Assembly (NCBI RefSeq): GCF_942548115.1
Contig: NZ_OW824151.1
Span: 2,294,001 to 2,358,000 of the forward strand
DNA from: Aeromicrobium sp. Leaf245
GTDB taxonomy: Bacteria > Actinomycetota > Actinomycetes > Propionibacteriales > Nocardioidaceae
DNA: 64,000 nucleotides
Direction of reading: 5' to 3'
Shown here piece after piece: positions 23,498 to 61,797 of the stretch. The notes below the pieces were generated by a model, which was not told the origin of the DNA, did no database searches, and worked only from the letters and a program-made list of their open reading frames with translations. Numbering within the stretch: position 1 is the stretch's first letter; each line of letters begins with the position of its first letter. Both the position numbers and the translations under genes were made by a program.

Positions 23498-24712
23498 TCA
23501 GTCGACGTCGGGAATCCGGTCGAGCACCGCGACGCACTCCACGTGGTGGGTCATGGGGAACAGGGCGAACGCCCGCAGGTCCCCCAGCCGGTAGCCGTGC
23601 TCGGCGAACGTCGCGACGTCACGGGCCAGGGCCGCGGGATCGCACGCCACGTAGACGACGCGACGGGCACCGAGCCGCGCCACGTCGGGAACGGCGCGTC
23701 GGGCCCCGGTCCGTGGCGGGTCGAGGACCACCAGGTCGACGCCCCGACGGAGGTCGGCGTCGTGACGGAGCGCCTGCTCGGTGGTGGCGGAGACCAGGCG
23801 GACCTGGGCGTGCCGGTGCAGCGACCGGCGGGCGTCGCGCGCGGCCTGGGTGTCGGCCTCCACGCTGACCACCGTGCCCTGGGGCCCCACGCGGTCGGCG
23901 AGGAACGCGGTGAACAGCCCGACCCCGGCGTAGAGGTCGGCGACCCGATCCCCGGGTCGGGCCTCGGCGGCCTCGAGGACGGCGTCGACCAGGGTGCGCG
24001 CTGCTTCCGGGTGCACCTGCCAGAAGCCGGAGCCGGTCACGGTGAAGTCGTGGCCCTCGACGCGCTCGGTGAGCCGCGTGCGACCTGCGCGCCGCGTGCC
24101 GTCGGTGCCTGCGACTCCGTCGACGTGGAGGTCCTTGGGCACCGTCGCGTCGGTGACGAGGAGCTGCTGGTCCGTGGAGGAGACGATCGCCTCGACCTGG
24201 GGGGCGTCCCAGCGGTGCGACAGGACGTCGGGCAGGCCGGGGTGGGCGATCGGACAGTGCCCGACCGGGACGACCTCGTGGGAGCGGTGGCGGCGCAGTC
24301 CTGCGCGTCCGTCGGGGGTGGTCGACCACGTCACGCGGGTGCGCCAGCCGAGGGAGGGACCGACGGCCTCGACCCGCACCTCCCGCTCGATGCCGGCGAG
24401 GCGCTGCAGCTGCTCGGACACGACCGACCCGAGCAGCCGCAGCTGGGCCTCGGGGGCGACGTGCTGGAAGTCGCAGCCTCCGCAGACCCCCGCGAGGTCG
24501 CACGGCGGGGCCACCCGGTCGGGGGACGCCTCGAGCACCTCCACGGCGTCGGCGCGCAGGTACCGCTTGGTGCGGTCGGTGACGCGAATGCTGACCCGCT
24601 CCCCCGGCAGCGCGTGCCTCACGAACACGACCTGCCCGTCCAGCCGCGCCACGCAGGAGCCCCCGTGGGCGACGGGCCCCACCTCGACCACGGGAAGAGC
24701 CTCGGACGTCAC
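23498..24712 (-). CDS. TRAM-domain class I RNA 5-methyluridine methyltransferase (TrmA/RlmD family)
   Basis: A 404-residue protein. An N-terminal TRAM OB-fold (VVEVGPVAHGGSCVARLDGQVVFVRHALPGERVSIRV) is followed by the Fe-S cluster block CDLAGVCGGCDFQH, a central domain, the SAM motif DRVADLYAGVGLFTAFLADRVG, VVLDPPRTGARR and the catalytic Cys in VYVACDPAALARD. It should methylate C5 of a uridine in 23S rRNA or tRNA. The GTG start overlaps the TGA of a 31-codon micro-ORF (GTGA), and the usual ribosome site is eroded to GGGACA, so translation probably relies on coupling. Confidence 0.88.
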   Translation of the reverse strand: MTSEALPVVEVGPVAHGGSCVARLDGQVVFVRHALPGERVSIRVTDRTKRYLRADAVEVLEASPDRVAPPCDLAGVCGGCDFQHVAPEAQLRLLGSVVSEQLQRLAGIEREVRVEAVGPSLGWRTRVTWSTTPDGRAGLRRHRSHEVVPVGHCPIAHPGLPDVLSHRWDAPQVEAIVSSTDQQLLVTDATVPKDLHVDGVAGTDGTRRAGRTRLTERVEGHDFTVTGSGFWQVHPEAARTLVDAVLEAAEARPGDRVADLYAGVGLFTAFLADRVGPQGTVVSVEADTQAARDARRSLHRHAQVRLVSATTEQALRHDADLRRGVDLVVLDPPRTGARRAVPDVARLGARRVVYVACDPAALARDVATFAEHGYRLGDLRAFALFPMTHHVECVAVLDRIPDVD

Positions 24713-24804
24713 GCGAGAACTGTCCCACGGGGTCCGGAGCCCACCGAAGTCGCACCGTGGGCGACGGGCCCCACCTCGACCACGGGAAGACCCTCGGACG
24801 TCAC
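24709..24804 (-). CDS. micro-ORF 2 (31 aa), copy of methyltransferase N-terminus
   Basis: Starts at GTG 24804 with a good ribosome site GGAGGT (24813-24818) 8 nt upstream, and ends in TGA overlapping the methyltransferase GTG. Its first 17 residues VTSEGLPVVEVGPVAHG differ by one residue from the methyltransferase start VTSEALPVVEVGPVAHG; the rest (ATSVGSGPRGTVLA) is unrelated. It may be a leader that feeds ribosomes into the methyltransferase, or a decaying duplication. No protein function is claimed. Confidence 0.5.
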   Translation of the reverse strand: MTSEGLPVVEVGPVAHGATSVGSGPRGTVLA

Positions 24805-24893
24805 GCGAACCCACCTCCCCGGGGCTCGGAGCACACCGAACCAGCACCGTGGGCGACGGGCCCCACCTGGACGATCGGGAGGACCGCGCTCAT
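24801..24893 (-). CDS. micro-ORF 1 (30 aa), second copy of methyltransferase N-terminus
   Basis: Starts at ATG 24893 overlapping the permease stop (ATGA) and ends in TGA overlapping the micro-ORF 2 start (GTGA). It begins MSAVLPIVQVGPVAHG, similar to the methyltransferase start, and its tail GSVCSEPRGGGFA resembles the tail of micro-ORF 2. No clear ribosome site; translation would depend on coupling to the permease. Whether it is made is unknown. Confidence 0.4.
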   Translation of the reverse strand: MSAVLPIVQVGPVAHGAGSVCSEPRGGGFA

Positions 24894-26917
24894 GCGGGTC
24901 CGTCCGGGCCGGGCCGGTCCCCGATGCCGCGGCGCACGTCGCCGGGTGCGCTGCCGATGGTGCTGCGGGGGTCGACGCGGGAGGCGGAGCTCAGCTGGTA
25001 CGGGACGCTGGTCACCATGACGCCGGGCATGAAGAGCAGGCGTCCCTTGAGGCGCAGCGCGGTCTGGTTGTGCAGCAGCTGCTCCCACCAGTGCCCGACG
25101 ACGTACTCGGGGATGTAGACGCTGACGATGTCGCGGGGGCTCGCCCGGCGCACCTCCTTGACGTACTTGACCACGGGGCGCACGAGCTCGCGGTAGGGCG
25201 ACGACACGACGGTGAGCGGGACGGGGATCTGCAGGTCGTCCCACCGCTGGCGCAGCACCTGGGTGTCGTGCGGGTCGAGCTCCACGTAGAGACCCTCGAG
25301 GCTGCTCGGCCGCGCCACTCGGGCGTAGGCGATGGCCCGCAGGGTCGGCTTGTGGAGCCGGCCCACGAGGACGACGGCGTGGACGCGCGAGGGAAGGGCG
25401 ACGTCGGTCTCGTCGATCTCGAGCTCCGCGTTGACCCGCTGGTAGTGCCGGTTGATGCCCACCATGAGGAAGAAGACGATGGTCATGGCGAGGATCGCGA
25501 TCCAGGCTCCGGCGAGGAACTTGGTGATGAGGACGATCACGAGCACGGTGGCCGTCATGGCCAGGCCGAACCCGTTGACGAGCCGCGAGCGCTTCATCCG
25601 GCGCCGTTCGGCGGGGTCCGTCTCGGCGGCGAGGTGCCGGGTCCAGTGCCGGATCATGCCCAGCTGGCTGAGGTTGAACGAGACGAAGACGCCCACGATG
25701 TAGAGCTGGATGAGCTTCGTGACCTCGGCGTCGAAGGCGACGATCAGCGCGATCGCGGCGACGGCGAGCAGGACGATGCCGTTGCTGAAGGCCAGCCGGT
25801 CCCCGCGGGTGTCGAGCTGGCGCGGCAGGTGTCCGTCGCGCGCGAGGATGGAACCGAGGACGGGGAAGCCGTTGAAGGCGGTGTTCGCCGCCAGCACGAG
25901 GATGATGCCGGTGCAGGCGATCGTGAAGTAGAACAGTGGCGCCGCGTCGCTGTAGAGCGCCTTGGCGAGCTGCGCGATGACGGTGTCCTGCTCGAAGCCG
26001 TCACCCACCGGTCGGCCGTCGAGCAGCAGCTGGCGGGCCGGGTCCTCGACGTAGCGGATGTGCATGGCGTCGGCCAGCACGATGATGCTCATGAGCATCG
26101 TGATCGAGATGGTGCCGAGCAGCAGCAGCGTGGTGGCGGCGTTGGCGCTCTTGGGCTTGCGGAAGGCGGGCACGCCGTTGCTGATCGCCTCCACGCCGGT
26201 GAGGGCGGCGCATCCGGACGAGAACGCCCGGGCGAGCAGGAACGCCATGGCCAGGCCGGTGAGCGCGGAGTCGTAGGGCGCCTCGGCGGCGATCTCGTAC
26301 CGGGCGCTCTCGGCCTGGGGCAGGTCACCCAGGAGGTAGCGGACCAGTCCCCAGCAGGCCATCAGGGCGATCGCCAGCATGAACAGGTACGTCGGCACGG
26401 CGAACGCGCGGCCGGACTCCTTGGCGCCGCGCAGGTTGAGCGTCATGAGCAGGAGGACGAGCGCCGACGCGGCCAGGGCCTCGTGGCCGACGAGCCACGG
26501 CACCGCGGACGTCGCATTCTGCACCCCCGAGGAGATCGAGACCGCGACGGTGAGCACGTAGTCGACGAGCAGCGCGCTGGCCACCGTGACGCCCGACTTG
26601 GGCCCCAGGTTCGTGGTGGCGACCTCGTAGTCACCTCCACCGCTGGGGTAGGCGCGCACGTTCTGGCGGTAGGACGCGACGACGGTGAGCATCACGACGA
26701 CGACGGCGAGGCCGATCTTCCAGTTGAACGCGTAGGCCGTGATGCCGCCCATCGACAGGGTCAGGAAGATCTCGTCGGGCGCGTACGCCACCGACGACAG
26801 GGCGTCGCTGGCGAAGACGGGCAGCGCGATGCGCTTCGGCAGCAGCGTCTCCCCGAGCTGGGTGCTGCGAAGCTTGCGTCCGACGAGCGTCCGCTTGACG
26901 GACTCGACCATGCCCAC
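24890..26917 (-). CDS. APC-superfamily permease, KimA-like potassium transporter
   Basis: A 675-residue protein with about 12 hydrophobic segments and a soluble C-terminal domain of roughly 160 residues beginning RVHAVVLVGRLHKPTLRAIAYAR, the layout of KimA (YdaO) of Bacillus subtilis, a c-di-AMP-controlled K+ transporter. The core motifs PVFASDALSSVAYAPDE and YPSGGGDYEVATTNLGP are typical of this group. The neighbouring divergent genes encode two TrkA-type K+ gating proteins, which supports a potassium role. The GTG at 26917 is favoured because TACGAT lies 8 nt upstream (leaderless); an ATG at 26911 is the alternative. Substrate is inferred. Confidence 0.75.
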   Translation of the reverse strand: MGMVESVKRTLVGRKLRSTQLGETLLPKRIALPVFASDALSSVAYAPDEIFLTLSMGGITAYAFNWKIGLAVVVVMLTVVASYRQNVRAYPSGGGDYEVATTNLGPKSGVTVASALLVDYVLTVAVSISSGVQNATSAVPWLVGHEALAASALVLLLMTLNLRGAKESGRAFAVPTYLFMLAIALMACWGLVRYLLGDLPQAESARYEIAAEAPYDSALTGLAMAFLLARAFSSGCAALTGVEAISNGVPAFRKPKSANAATTLLLLGTISITMLMSIIVLADAMHIRYVEDPARQLLLDGRPVGDGFEQDTVIAQLAKALYSDAAPLFYFTIACTGIILVLAANTAFNGFPVLGSILARDGHLPRQLDTRGDRLAFSNGIVLLAVAAIALIVAFDAEVTKLIQLYIVGVFVSFNLSQLGMIRHWTRHLAAETDPAERRRMKRSRLVNGFGLAMTATVLVIVLITKFLAGAWIAILAMTIVFFLMVGINRHYQRVNAELEIDETDVALPSRVHAVVLVGRLHKPTLRAIAYARVARPSSLEGLYVELDPHDTQVLRQRWDDLQIPVPLTVVSSPYRELVRPVVKYVKEVRRASPRDIVSVYIPEYVVGHWWEQLLHNQTALRLKGRLLFMPGVMVTSVPYQLSSASRVDPRSTIGSAPGDVRRGIGDRPGPDGPA

Positions 26918-27006: not shown

Positions 27007-27669
27007 GTGCACATCGTCATCATGGGCTGCGGACGCGTCGGCTCGACGCTGACGCGCAGCCTCGAGGAGCGCGGCCACTCCACGGCCGTCATCGACTCCA
27101 ACCCCGACGCCTTCCGCCGCCTGGGGCCGGACTTCACCGGCACCACCGTGACCGGCATGGGCTTCGACCGCGAGGTCCTGCGTGCGGCCGGCATCGAGCA
27201 CGCCGACGGCTTCGCCGCGGTCTCGAGCGGCGACAACTCCAACATCATCTCGGCACGGGTCGCGCGTGAGCAGTTCGGCGTCGACAACGTCGTGGCCCGC
27301 ATCTACGACCCGGGCCGCGCCGAGGTGTACGAGCGCCTCGGCGTCCCCACGGTCGCCACGGTGCCGTGGGCGGCCGACCAGGTCCTGCGTCGGCTCGTCC
27401 CGGCGGGGTCGGAGCCCGCGTGGCGCGACCCGTCCGGCCAGCTGCGACTCGACACCCTCTACGCCCCGTTCCCGTGGATCGGTCACGAGGTCTCGAGCCT
27501 CGAGGACGCCGCGGGAGTCCGCGTGGCCTACCTGACGCGCCTCGGGTCCGGCCTGGTCGCGAGCGGACGCACGGTGCTGCAGGAGGGCGACCTGCTCGCC
27601 GTCTTCATGCGTGAGGGCGACGCCGACCAGGCCCACCGCGTGCTCGAGTCCGGACCTGAGGAGGCCTGA
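27007..27669 (+). CDS. TrkA-family potassium uptake protein (CeoB/CeoC type), first of pair
   Basis: A 220-residue cytosolic RCK protein. The N-terminal Rossmann motif is HIVIMGCGRVGSTL (GxGxxG), followed by IDSNPDAF for NAD(H) ribose binding, and a TrkA_C domain begins near residue 140 (LYAPFPWIGHEVSSLE). It should sense nucleotide and gate a K+ transporter. It is coupled to a second TrkA gene by a TGATG overlap, like ceoB-ceoC of mycobacteria. Its unusual C-terminal portion is longer than in many RCK proteins but intact. Confidence 0.9.
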   Translation: MHIVIMGCGRVGSTLTRSLEERGHSTAVIDSNPDAFRRLGPDFTGTTVTGMGFDREVLRAAGIEHADGFAAVSSGDNSNIISARVAREQFGVDNVVARIYDPGRAEVYERLGVPTVATVPWAADQVLRRLVPAGSEPAWRDPSGQLRLDTLYAPFPWIGHEVSSLEDAAGVRVAYLTRLGSGLVASGRTVLQEGDLLAVFMREGDADQAHRVLESGPEEA

Positions 27670-28331
27670 TGCGCGTCGCCATCGCGGGAGCCGGTGCCGT
27701 CGGCCGTTCCGTCGCGCTCGAGCTCACCGAGAACGGGCACCAGGTGCTCCTGATCGACAAGTCCCCCGGGTCCATCCGGTCCGACCTCGTGCCGAAGGCG
27801 CAGTGGCTTCTGGCCGATGCGTGCGAGATGTCCTCCCTCGAGGAGGCCGGGCTGCAGACGTGCGACGTGGTCATCGCCGCGACGGGCGACGACAAGGTCA
27901 ACCTGGTCGTCTCGCTGCTGGCCAAGACGGAGTTCTCGGTCCCCCGGACCGTCGGTCGCGTCAACCACCCGAGCAACGAGTGGCTGTTCGGCGAGACCTG
28001 GGGCGTCGACGTGGCGGTCTCGACCCCGCGGCTCATGTCGGCCCTGGTGGAGGAGGCGGTGTCGGTCGGCGACCTCGTGCGCCTGTTCACCTTCCGCCAG
28101 AGCAACACCAGCCTGGTCGAGCTGACGATGCCCGAGGACTCCCCCTTCGCCGGGCGCCTCGTGCGCGACGTCCCGTGGCCACGCGACGTGGTCCTCGTGG
28201 CCATCCTGCGCGACAACGCGATCGAGACGCCCGACCCGGAGCGCTCGCTCGAGGCGGGCGACGAGCTCTTGTTCGTCACCGCACCGGACGCGGAGGACGA
28301 GATCGGCGCCCTGCTCTCCCCCAAGTCGTGA
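27669..28331 (+). CDS. TrkA-family potassium uptake protein, second of pair
   Basis: A 220-residue RCK protein: MRVAIAGAGAVGRSVALEL (GxGxxG), LLIDKSPGS, then DVVIAATGDDKVNLVVSLLAKTEF and GRVNHPSNEWLF, and a C-terminal TrkA_C domain (LVELTMPEDSPFAGRLVRDVPWPRDVVLVAILR). It shares the base A of TGATG with the preceding gene and probably forms a hetero-oligomer with it. No TrkG/TrkH channel lies in the window; the divergent KimA-like permease is a possible partner. It ends at the large repeat-filled gap. Confidence 0.9.
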   Translation: MRVAIAGAGAVGRSVALELTENGHQVLLIDKSPGSIRSDLVPKAQWLLADACEMSSLEEAGLQTCDVVIAATGDDKVNLVVSLLAKTEFSVPRTVGRVNHPSNEWLFGETWGVDVAVSTPRLMSALVEEAVSVGDLVRLFTFRQSNTSLVELTMPEDSPFAGRLVRDVPWPRDVVLVAILRDNAIETPDPERSLEAGDELLFVTAPDAEDEIGALLSPKS

Positions 28332-28368
28332 GTCGCTGCTCGTCCTGAGGCGTCGTGGCTGCGTCGGC

Positions 28369-28461
28369 GGCTGGGCGTTCGCTCGCTGCTGTGTCGGCCG
28401 GCTGGGCGTTCGCTCGCGCCTACGTTGCCCGGCCGGGCGTTCACGCACTGCTGCGTCGCTG
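28369..28461. repeat. tandem repeat, 3 x 31 bp
   Basis: Units begin at 28369, 28400 and 28431 with GGCTGGGCGTTCGCTCG (third copy GGCCGGGCGTTCACGCA). The period is exactly 31 bp. Confidence 0.8.
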
Positions 28462-28684: not shown

Positions 28685-28726
28685 GATGCTGCGTTTGCTA
28701 CGGGATCCCGTAGCAAACGCAGCATC
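28685..28726. repeat. 42-bp perfect palindrome
   Basis: GATGCTGCGTTTGCTACGGG is followed by AT and then its exact reverse complement, centred on a GGATCC site. As RNA it makes a 19-bp stem with a 4-base loop on either strand. Located midway between two convergent genes, it may be a bidirectional terminator, although there is no T-tract. Confidence 0.85.
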
Positions 28727-28830
28727 CATCGACCCCTCACGCACGAACGCAGAACCTTGCGTCCCCCGAGCCACGCTCCGAGAACCCGACCGGGCCCAGA
28801 CCCCTCCGCCGGTCGAGGCCCTTTCGGAGC

Positions 28831-28985
28831 GCAGGTCGACGACGAGCCACAGCGACGCAGCCGCAGGTCGAGACCCAGCCACATCGACGCAGCCGCAGGT
28901 CGAGACCCAGCCACATCGACGCAGCCGCAGGTCGAGACCCACCCGGAGCAGCGCAGCCGCAGGTCGAGGCCCCGCCGCAGCGAAC
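28831..28985. repeat. tandem repeat, about 5 x 32 bp
   Basis: GCAGGTCGA recurs at 28831, 28863, 28895, 28927 and 28959, an exact 32-bp period. The second and third units are identical; the first, fourth and fifth diverge. There are no unique spacers, so it is not a CRISPR array. Confidence 0.85.
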
Positions 28986-28991
28986 AGCGCG

Positions 28992-29660
28992 TCACCGAGT
29001 AGCAGGCGGCTCCGGCTCGGCCTCGGCCTCGATCGGGGTGGAGTTGCGCGAGAGCACCCACGCCATCGCCGCGAACGCCGCGACCTGCAGGGGCCAGCCG
29101 AGCACGACCTTGGAGGTGCCGAGCAGCGCCACGTGGTCGCCGGCCCACAGCGGGTACTGCACCACGACCCGCAGGATGCAGGGTGCGGCGAAGAGCCAGG
29201 TCAGCAGGGAGCACAGCCGGACGAGCTGCCGGTCCTCGTGCCACTCGGTGGGCTCGCCGGTGAGGCTGCCGATGAGGAACCCGATGAGGGGCCACCCCAC
29301 GAGGATCGAGACGATGAACACCGCCGCGTAGGCGCCGTTGTAGAGAATCCCGGGCAGGAACACGTCACGAGCCTCGCCGCTGCGCGACGCGAACACGGCG
29401 GCGATGGCGATGCCGATGAGGGCGTTCAGCACGAACTGCACGGTGGAGCGCTGGGCGAGCCGCACCACGACCAGCAGGACCGCCGCGCCGACGCTCGCGA
29501 CGAGCGAGGTCCGCAGGTCCTGCGTGCTGATCCAGCAGATCGTGAACACGATCGTGGGCACGGCACTCTCGACGATGCCGCGCCCGCCGCCGAGCGCCTC
29601 GGAGAGCTTGGACCGCACCAGCTCCTCGACGGTGGCGACGCTCGCGCCGGCCTCGCTCAT
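28992..29660 (-). CDS. DUF3159 integral membrane protein
   Basis: A 222-residue protein from ATG 29660, which overlaps the OB-fold stop (ATGA). It opens with VEELVRSKLSEALGGGRGIVESAVPTIVFTICW, the DUF3159 hallmark, then five or six hydrophobic segments including SLVASVGAAVLLVVVRLA, FVLNALIGIAIAAVFA, YAAVFIVSILVGWPLIGFLIG and LQVAAFAAMAWVLS. A loop FLPGILYNGAYA and the region TEWHEDRQLVRLCSLLTWLFAAPCILR are well conserved in the family. Function is unknown; the gene is always near dut, DUF3710 and the OB-fold gene in actinobacteria. Confidence 0.85.
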   Translation of the reverse strand: MSEAGASVATVEELVRSKLSEALGGGRGIVESAVPTIVFTICWISTQDLRTSLVASVGAAVLLVVVRLAQRSTVQFVLNALIGIAIAAVFASRSGEARDVFLPGILYNGAYAAVFIVSILVGWPLIGFLIGSLTGEPTEWHEDRQLVRLCSLLTWLFAAPCILRVVVQYPLWAGDHVALLGTSKVVLGWPLQVAAFAAMAWVLSRNSTPIEAEAEPEPPATR

Positions 29661-30013
29661 GCGTCCAGCTCGTAGCGCGGGTTGTAGAGCACGAAGGCGT
29701 CGCCGCGGCGACCGATGCGGCCGTGCACGGTCAGACGTCGCCCGGGCTCGATGCCCTCGATCCGGCGTCGGCCCAGCCACACGAGGGTGACCTGCCCGGA
29801 CCCGTCGTAGAGCTGCGCCTCGAGGGCGCTCGCACCGTCGGCGACCGGGCGGGTGGTGACGGACCGCAGCTCACCGTGCAGCGAGCAGACCGACCTCTCG
29901 GCCTGGGCGGTGAGCAACCGGCAGCCCGCGGCGTCGGCGCTGCGCTGCAGCTCCTGGTCCTCGAGCTGCTCGAGGGTCGCGCGGCGCATGGGGCGGCGCA
30001 GTCGGGATGCCAT
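29657..30013 (-). CDS. OB-fold nucleic-acid-binding domain protein
   Basis: A 118-residue protein with an OB-fold after an N-terminal helix (LEQLEDQELQRSADAAGC). The strands EAQLYDGSGQVTLVWLGRRRIEGIEPGRRLTVHGRIG and FVLYNPRYEL match the tRNA-anti-like OB domain seen in RecG and related proteins. It is probably a small nucleic-acid-binding protein, partner unknown. It is coupled to the DUF3159 gene downstream and has a TAGGAT box 6 nt before its ATG. Confidence 0.8.
   Translation of the reverse strand: MASRLRRPMRRATLEQLEDQELQRSADAAGCRLLTAQAERSVCSLHGELRSVTTRPVADGASALEAQLYDGSGQVTLVWLGRRRIEGIEPGRRLTVHGRIGRRGDAFVLYNPRYELDA

Positions 30014-60514: not shown

Positions 60515-61797
<1,283 letters not shown>

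Follow-up and report, generated by a model that had tools for sequence, protein, structure and literature searches.

Micro-ORFs between a permease gene and a methyltransferase gene

A 64-kb stretch of the Aeromicrobium sp. Leaf245 genome (hereafter the window; the genome, labelled G000, is a single contig of 3.46 Mb) carries on its minus strand a KimA-like permease gene, two micro-open reading frames (micro-ORFs) and an RlmD-type methyltransferase gene, joined in that order by ATGA, GTGA and GTGA junctions. The array formed by the micro-ORFs is the subject of this analysis. The permease, a 675-aa ORF of the APC superfamily (24890..26917; PF13520), matches KimA (6s3k) with an E-value of 8e-111, in agreement with the label given to it in a first-pass annotation of the same DNA. 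Its TGA overlaps the ATG start of micro-ORF 1 (24801..24893, minus strand; 30 aa; weak Shine-Dalgarno (SD) site; MSAVLPIVQVGPVAHGAGSVCSEPRGGGFA), whose stop overlaps the GTG start of micro-ORF 2 (24709..24804, minus strand; 31 aa; strong SD; VTSEGLPVVEVGPVAHGATSVGSGPRGTVLA). The stop of micro-ORF 2 in turn overlaps the GTG start of the methyltransferase (23498..24712, minus strand; 404 aa), a TRAM-domain RNA uracil-C5 methyltransferase of the RlmD/RumA type (PF01938, PF05958; RumA 1uwv). The overlap is 4 nt at all three junctions, and the layout of the two micro-ORFs described in that annotation is exact to the base. No Pfam family matched the micro-ORFs. Judged by its sequence, the methyltransferase is RumA/RlmD-like: it scores 234.9 bits with the rumA profile TIGR00479 (cut-off 183.55) and 237.9 with the RlmD profile NF009639, below the cut-off of 458, and its TRAM domain starts at residue 9.

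The micro-ORFs and the start of the methyltransferase gene together form a 92-bp tandem repeat of 2.4 copies (24663..24885), detected both by a repeat pair search and by Tandem Repeats Finder (TRF), whose score of 316 for it is the highest of the ten repeats listed for the window; as a repeat, it exceeds chance. The 92-nt pair is 84% identical, and a 42-nt core occurs three times at 92-nt spacing (100, 98 and 81%). On the minus strand, these cores correspond to the IVQVGPVAHG part of micro-ORF 1 (24847..24888), the VVEVGPVAHG part of micro-ORF 2 (24755..24796) and the genuine TRAM-domain start within the methyltransferase (24663..24704). All three ORFs thus begin with the phrase P-(I/V)-V-(Q/E)-VGPVAHG. 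Successive starts lie 89 and then 92 nt apart, each distance being 2 mod 3. The out-of-frame tandem copying of about 92 bp described earlier is confirmed.

Each of the first two core copies is separated from the next start by a 42-nt linker on the same strand. Linker 1 (24805..24846), which leads to the GTG of micro-ORF 2, holds the strong SD GGAGGT (24813..24818), and linker 2 (24713..24754), which leads to the GTG of the methyltransferase, holds the degraded site GGGACA (24721..24726). The contrast between these two sites was likewise part of the first-pass annotation, and it is large when SD strength is calculated as pairing with an assumed 16S tail sequence (-15.6 vs -3.9 kcal/mol).

Distribution of the array among Aeromicrobium species

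The methyltransferase start was scanned for extra upstream copies of the motif in 44 of 49 Aeromicrobium genomes, one per species; the other five (G001, G002, G062, G066 and G069) were covered by the pattern scans described below. Micro-ORFs precede the methyltransferase in six of the 44 genomes. There is one unit in G065, G004 and G019, two in G000 and G028, and two plus a 13-codon remnant in G005. The unit number is therefore not fixed at two, as a comparison of this junction across related genomes, suggested at the outset, makes plain. Since G000, G005 and G019 are single-contig genomes and the array is present in five species besides that of the window, the concern that the duplication might be a private assembly artefact is ruled out.

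Two exact patterns were searched in 341 genomes of the family and gave three and four matches (G000 in both), which together represent the same six species; none fell in the other genera of the 26. With either pattern, two or three of the six arrays went undetected, so that diverged copies escape such a search. One exact pattern, searched in 391 genomes of the order (a sample from more), gave three matches and no new array. Similarly, among the matches listed, 80 named actinobacterial loci included none with two motifs, 53 with one and 27 with none; the motif search therefore does not see starts that have diverged, and the gene start is missing from at least one of these loci (L082). The window array matched its own genome only at its own locus, with no sign of dispersal. 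When the G065 unit was compared with the 49 genomes of the genus, matches with E-values below 1e-10 lay, among the matches listed, at this locus alone, in four genomes, and the best other match listed (G058, 4e-6) has no array.

A tree of 46 methyltransferases places G000, G005, G028 and G065 in one clade (clade I; support 100/99). A second clade (95/98) comprises G019 and G004 along with the micro-ORF-free G030 and G032. Methyltransferases of the two clades are 61-69% identical. A topology in which the six carriers alone form one clade was rejected (p 2.5e-54), while a clade of the six plus G030 and G032 was not (p 0.20), which allows one gain plus one loss.

Junctions and ribosome-binding sites

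All 16 junctions in the six genomes, comprising the borders between the permease or other upstream gene, the micro-ORFs and the methyltransferase, are overlaps, of 4 nt in 12 cases and 8 nt in four. The eight distances between successive starts in clade I (38, 89 or 92 nt) are without exception 2 mod 3. The shortest belongs to the extra unit of G005, which has been cut down to 38 nt from start to start (13 codons) and has kept a GTGA overlap at both ends. In G004 and G019 the distances are 109 and 103 nt, or 1 mod 3, and the micro-ORF stop sits 8 nt inside the methyltransferase. G019 has the ATGA junction despite an upstream gene that is not the permease, and the micro-ORF therefore goes with the methyltransferase. 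Of 35 array-free relatives, 28 have an in-frame methyltransferase start that shares 1, 4 or 8 nt with the upstream gene; in one the overlap is 11 nt, and six have none. The starts were picked from the in-frame candidates so as to overlap where possible.

The first start of each array has a weak SD (+1.9 to -5.7 kcal/mol), and later starts range from -7.3 to -15.6 kcal/mol with the exception of the window methyltransferase (-3.9). Weak first starts are expected of a purely coupled start, and thus the SD pattern fits a relay of ribosomes along the array. A promoter scan of 24600-25100 returned no sigma-70-like match; it covered this one promoter type, and zero matches would be expected by chance too, so that the negative is weak and the methyltransferase may still have an independent promoter.

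Linkers and turnover of the units

Across species, 42-47 nt of linker lie between the copied core and the start that follows. Within clades, linkers resemble each other (p <=0.001 for the two linkers of G000, G000u1 and G000u2, for G000u2 and G065, and for G004 and G019; p 0.02 for G000u1 and G065). Between clades, the likeness is significant in two of six pairs (G000u1-G019, p 0.0015; G000u1-G004, p 0.011), and a single origin of the array is therefore not firm; nonetheless, we consider it likely that the arrays of both clades go back to one. The 44-nt linker of G005, G028 and G065 has one or two differing sites, against about 6-12 predicted from the fourfold sites of the gene, which are 72-87% identical (P 0.061, 4.5e-5 and 1.2e-5). 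Fourfold sites in the first 60 codons of the methyltransferase gene are not unusual.

Two candidate sources of the linker were rejected. Its similarity to the methyltransferase's own codons is not above that of shuffles (p 0.41-0.90), and the same holds for the C-terminal end of the permease, where RPAPGDVRRGF-like tails had been noticed by eye (protein p 0.08-0.81; DNA p 0.19-0.97). The G004 linker compared with its own permease end at the protein level gave p 0.23.

The start of the last micro-ORF is identical to the start of its own downstream gene at 44 of 45 nt in G000, 45 in G005, 45 in G028 and 41 in G065; between species, the gene starts share 34-41 of the 45. The copies are therefore homogenised, or recently copied, in G000, G005 and G028; G065 is not distinct from the between-species range. 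Together with the differences in unit number among species, the closeness of the last unit to its own gene start in three of these four genomes supports the earlier suggestion that the repeat expands and contracts.

A probable translational relay

We consider it probable that the array is a MIRU-like translational relay (after the mycobacterial interspersed repetitive units, MIRUs, discussed below) that arose when a translationally coupled gene start was duplicated in tandem. A translational relay had been raised as one option in the first-pass annotation, and it is supported by the anatomy of the locus and by the comparison between species, namely the 4- or 8-nt overlaps at every junction and the coupling predicted at array-free junctions. 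In the starting state, the methyltransferase start would mostly have overlapped the permease stop, and ribosomes finishing the permease would have restarted there. A stretch of about 90 bp, comprising the start codon, the first 16 or so codons and the linker, would then have been duplicated ahead of the gene in an ancestor common to the two clades. Read out of frame, the copy would run into the TGA contained in the start that follows (GTGA, or ATGNNTGA), and each copy would thereby become a micro-cistron ending exactly at the next start. Termination-reinitiation would carry ribosomes from the permease through micro-ORF 1 and micro-ORF 2 to the methyltransferase. Micro-ORF 2 of the window, which has the sole strong SD, would in addition recruit ribosomes de novo and hand them to the methyltransferase, which, having lost its own SD (-3.9), would depend on micro-ORF 2 in the manner of a natural bicistronic design. 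The micro-ORFs are presumably translated and would deliver ribosomes, and their peptides would need no function themselves.

Experiments in E. coli and Haloferax (PMC10666635) indicate that reinitiation needs short overlaps, all but ceases once the distance reaches about 20 nt, and requires no more than 15 nt of upstream gene sequence. Because reinitiation nearly vanishes at such distances, an insert of about 90 bp would break the coupling unless it came with a coupled ORF of its own, and a duplication across the junction would supply exactly that ORF. The likeliest reason for the array having been kept is that loss of the relay, with the insert retained, would cost the cell methyltransferase.

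Several observations weigh against this reading. By itself the layout is a weak argument for selection: when random tandem duplications were simulated across array-free junctions, a complete relay arose in 33.8% of 32,090, the criterion being a 1-, 4- or 8-nt overlap between a stop and the start after it. The layout therefore needs no design, and its retention is the notable part. Length changes that keep the frame are few, with about three net events in clade I, or (1/3)^3, and the way in which starts were picked in the array-free relatives itself favours overlaps. In G005, G028, G065 and G004 the methyltransferase itself is preceded by a fair SD (-10.6 to -11.6 kcal/mol), and given that site its need for the relay in these species may be doubtful. 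Additionally, the other four between-clade linker pairs are not significantly alike (p 0.12-0.29), and conservation of the linker is not beyond that of the average coding site (P 0.71, 0.13 and 0.12).

It is possible, if doubtful, that the array is simply a neutral tandem duplication in which the micro-ORFs are by-products and the methyltransferase uses its own start, GTGA and ATGA starts carrying an out-of-frame TGA in any case. Such an origin would be easy, as 34% of the simulated duplications yield a relay and TGA is present at the start codons of these genes in at least one of the other two frames, and it is consistent with the lack of excess RNA structure and of a Pfam match for the micro-ORFs. 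Direct repeats of more than 40 bp would be expected to be lost easily, yet the array has been retained in six species over 61-69% protein identity between clades. Furthermore, the frame was preserved through length changes of 3 and 51 nt, the linker evolves more slowly than fourfold sites (P <1e-4 in two of three pairs), and the window methyltransferase itself lacks a good SD.

We regard it as unlikely that the array is a relay selected for regulation, in which the number of units, or stalling on the repeated PVVEVGPVAHG peptide, would set the methyltransferase level, with expansion and contraction as tuning. The unit number does differ among species (one, two, or two plus a remnant), and the last unit resembles its own gene start at 41-45 of 45 nt, against 34-41 of 45 between species, so that turnover would be recent. 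However, the comparison is between species, with a single genome for each. The tag residues of the micro-ORFs also vary freely, and micro-ORF 1 of G028 has GSVA instead of GPVA, which makes a strict peptide role unlikely.

An RNA element, either a hairpin hiding the SD or a binding site of the methyltransferase, with the micro-ORFs as a by-product, is very improbable. In G005 and G028 a predicted fold pairs CCUCG with the CGAGG of the SD, and the linker is conserved among G005, G028 and G065; but the fold is not retained in G000, seven linkers are no more stable than shuffles (z -1.33 to +1.70), a 281-nt segment of the window has z -0.32 against shuffles, and no Rfam family matched 24400-25100 at E-values up to 1. 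Finally, it is scarcely credible that the methyltransferase starts further upstream in its own frame (e.g. at GTG 24847, giving 449 aa) and that the array is an N-terminal extension. That frame is indeed open (449 aa in the window, 452 aa in G005 and 459 aa in G028), but in the 404-aa form residue 9 already belongs to the TRAM domain as its first position. The extended frame encodes out-of-frame copies rich in arginine, and each of the six species shows an overlap of 4 or 8 nt at the short start.

Genomic neighbourhood

On the plus strand, divergent from the KimA-like permease, lie two tandem ORFs of 220 aa each (27007-28331) that look by eye like TrkA-type K+ uptake regulators and have one base (27669) in common. 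This neighbourhood would resemble mycobacterial Rv2689c-ceoB-ceoC, Rv2689c presumably being the mycobacterial counterpart of the methyltransferase. Downstream of both TrkA-like ORFs is a perfect 42-nt palindrome (28685-28726; GATGCTGCGTTTGCTACGGGATCCCGTAGCAAACGCAGCATC), flanked by intergenic tandem arrays at 28358-28458 (31 bp, 3.3 copies) and 28830-28983 (32 bp, 4.8 copies). Repeats of 15, 30 and 57 bp at 61640-61788 are probably the repetitive tail of a coding sequence. As for upstream genes in other species, that of the methyltransferase in G019 (L032) is, by eye, aldo/keto-reductase-like and ends in ...RIGAPTQSYTTYAP. In G022 (L031) and G017 (L036) the upstream ORF ends in ...GWPLQVA/I..., by eye like the 262-aa ORF at 28992-29780 of the window.

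Relation to known systems

MIRUs occur as tandem units of about 40-100 bp. Like MIRUs, the Aeromicrobium array consists of tandem units (89 and 92 nt; TRF period 92) and of ORFs whose ends overlap the neighbouring stop or start (ATGA, GTGA, GTGA; -8 in 4 of 16). According to PMC12548453, whose source on this point is Supply et al. 1997, MIRUs are inserted at start codons and carry an ORF coupled at -4 nt, which "likely" serves to keep the effect of the insertion on the gene small. MIRUs are interspersed at many loci and apparently mobile, whereas the Aeromicrobium array is at one locus with no dispersal seen, and by that test is therefore not a MIRU. In addition, its unit holds a copy of the downstream gene's own start and it belongs to another genus, the two having been compared by layout.

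A single relay between an upstream ORF (uORF) and a gene was shown experimentally for uPPE2-ppe2 of M. tuberculosis (PMC11260477). There too, a short out-of-frame ORF overlaps an SD-less gene at AUGA, and termination-reinitiation is needed for translation. That case has one uORF under a riboswitch, unrepeated and with no copy of the gene start, while the Aeromicrobium relay is proposed from DNA sequence. Ordinary termination-reinitiation gene pairs (also the topic of PMC6728339) are likewise co-directional, and the 4- and 8-nt overlaps seen at all 16 junctions are among their typical classes according to PMC10666635; serial micro-cistrons between two ordinary genes set the Aeromicrobium locus apart. 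In the leader cistron of the bicistronic design used in biotechnology, as outlined in PMC12548453, a short ORF with a strong SD similarly feeds ribosomes to a coupled start, but the Aeromicrobium array occurs in nature, is repeated and derives from the beginning of the target gene. In the open-access literature, no report was found of this array or of relays in series that stem from duplication of a gene start.

We tentatively, and with considerable doubt, extend the proposed relay to a self-propagating one. A coupled start would duplicate without cost, since every copy would turn into a coupled micro-cistron, and the copies, kept since the ancestor of the two clades, would recombine with the gene start and set the supply of ribosomes to what would be an rRNA methyltransferase through unit number and SD strength. 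If true, ordinary gene starts could in this way give rise to MIRU-like elements.

Annotators should bear in mind that both the micro-ORFs and the genuine start of the methyltransferase are prone to being mis-called. Overall, these Aeromicrobium species provide a natural series at one gene, from no units (direct coupling) through one micro-cistron to two or more, in closely comparable species. The series makes it testable whether ribosomes pass through several 30-codon cistrons in a row by termination-reinitiation, and whether MIRU-like elements may be born from ordinary coupled gene starts as opposed to arriving by insertion only.
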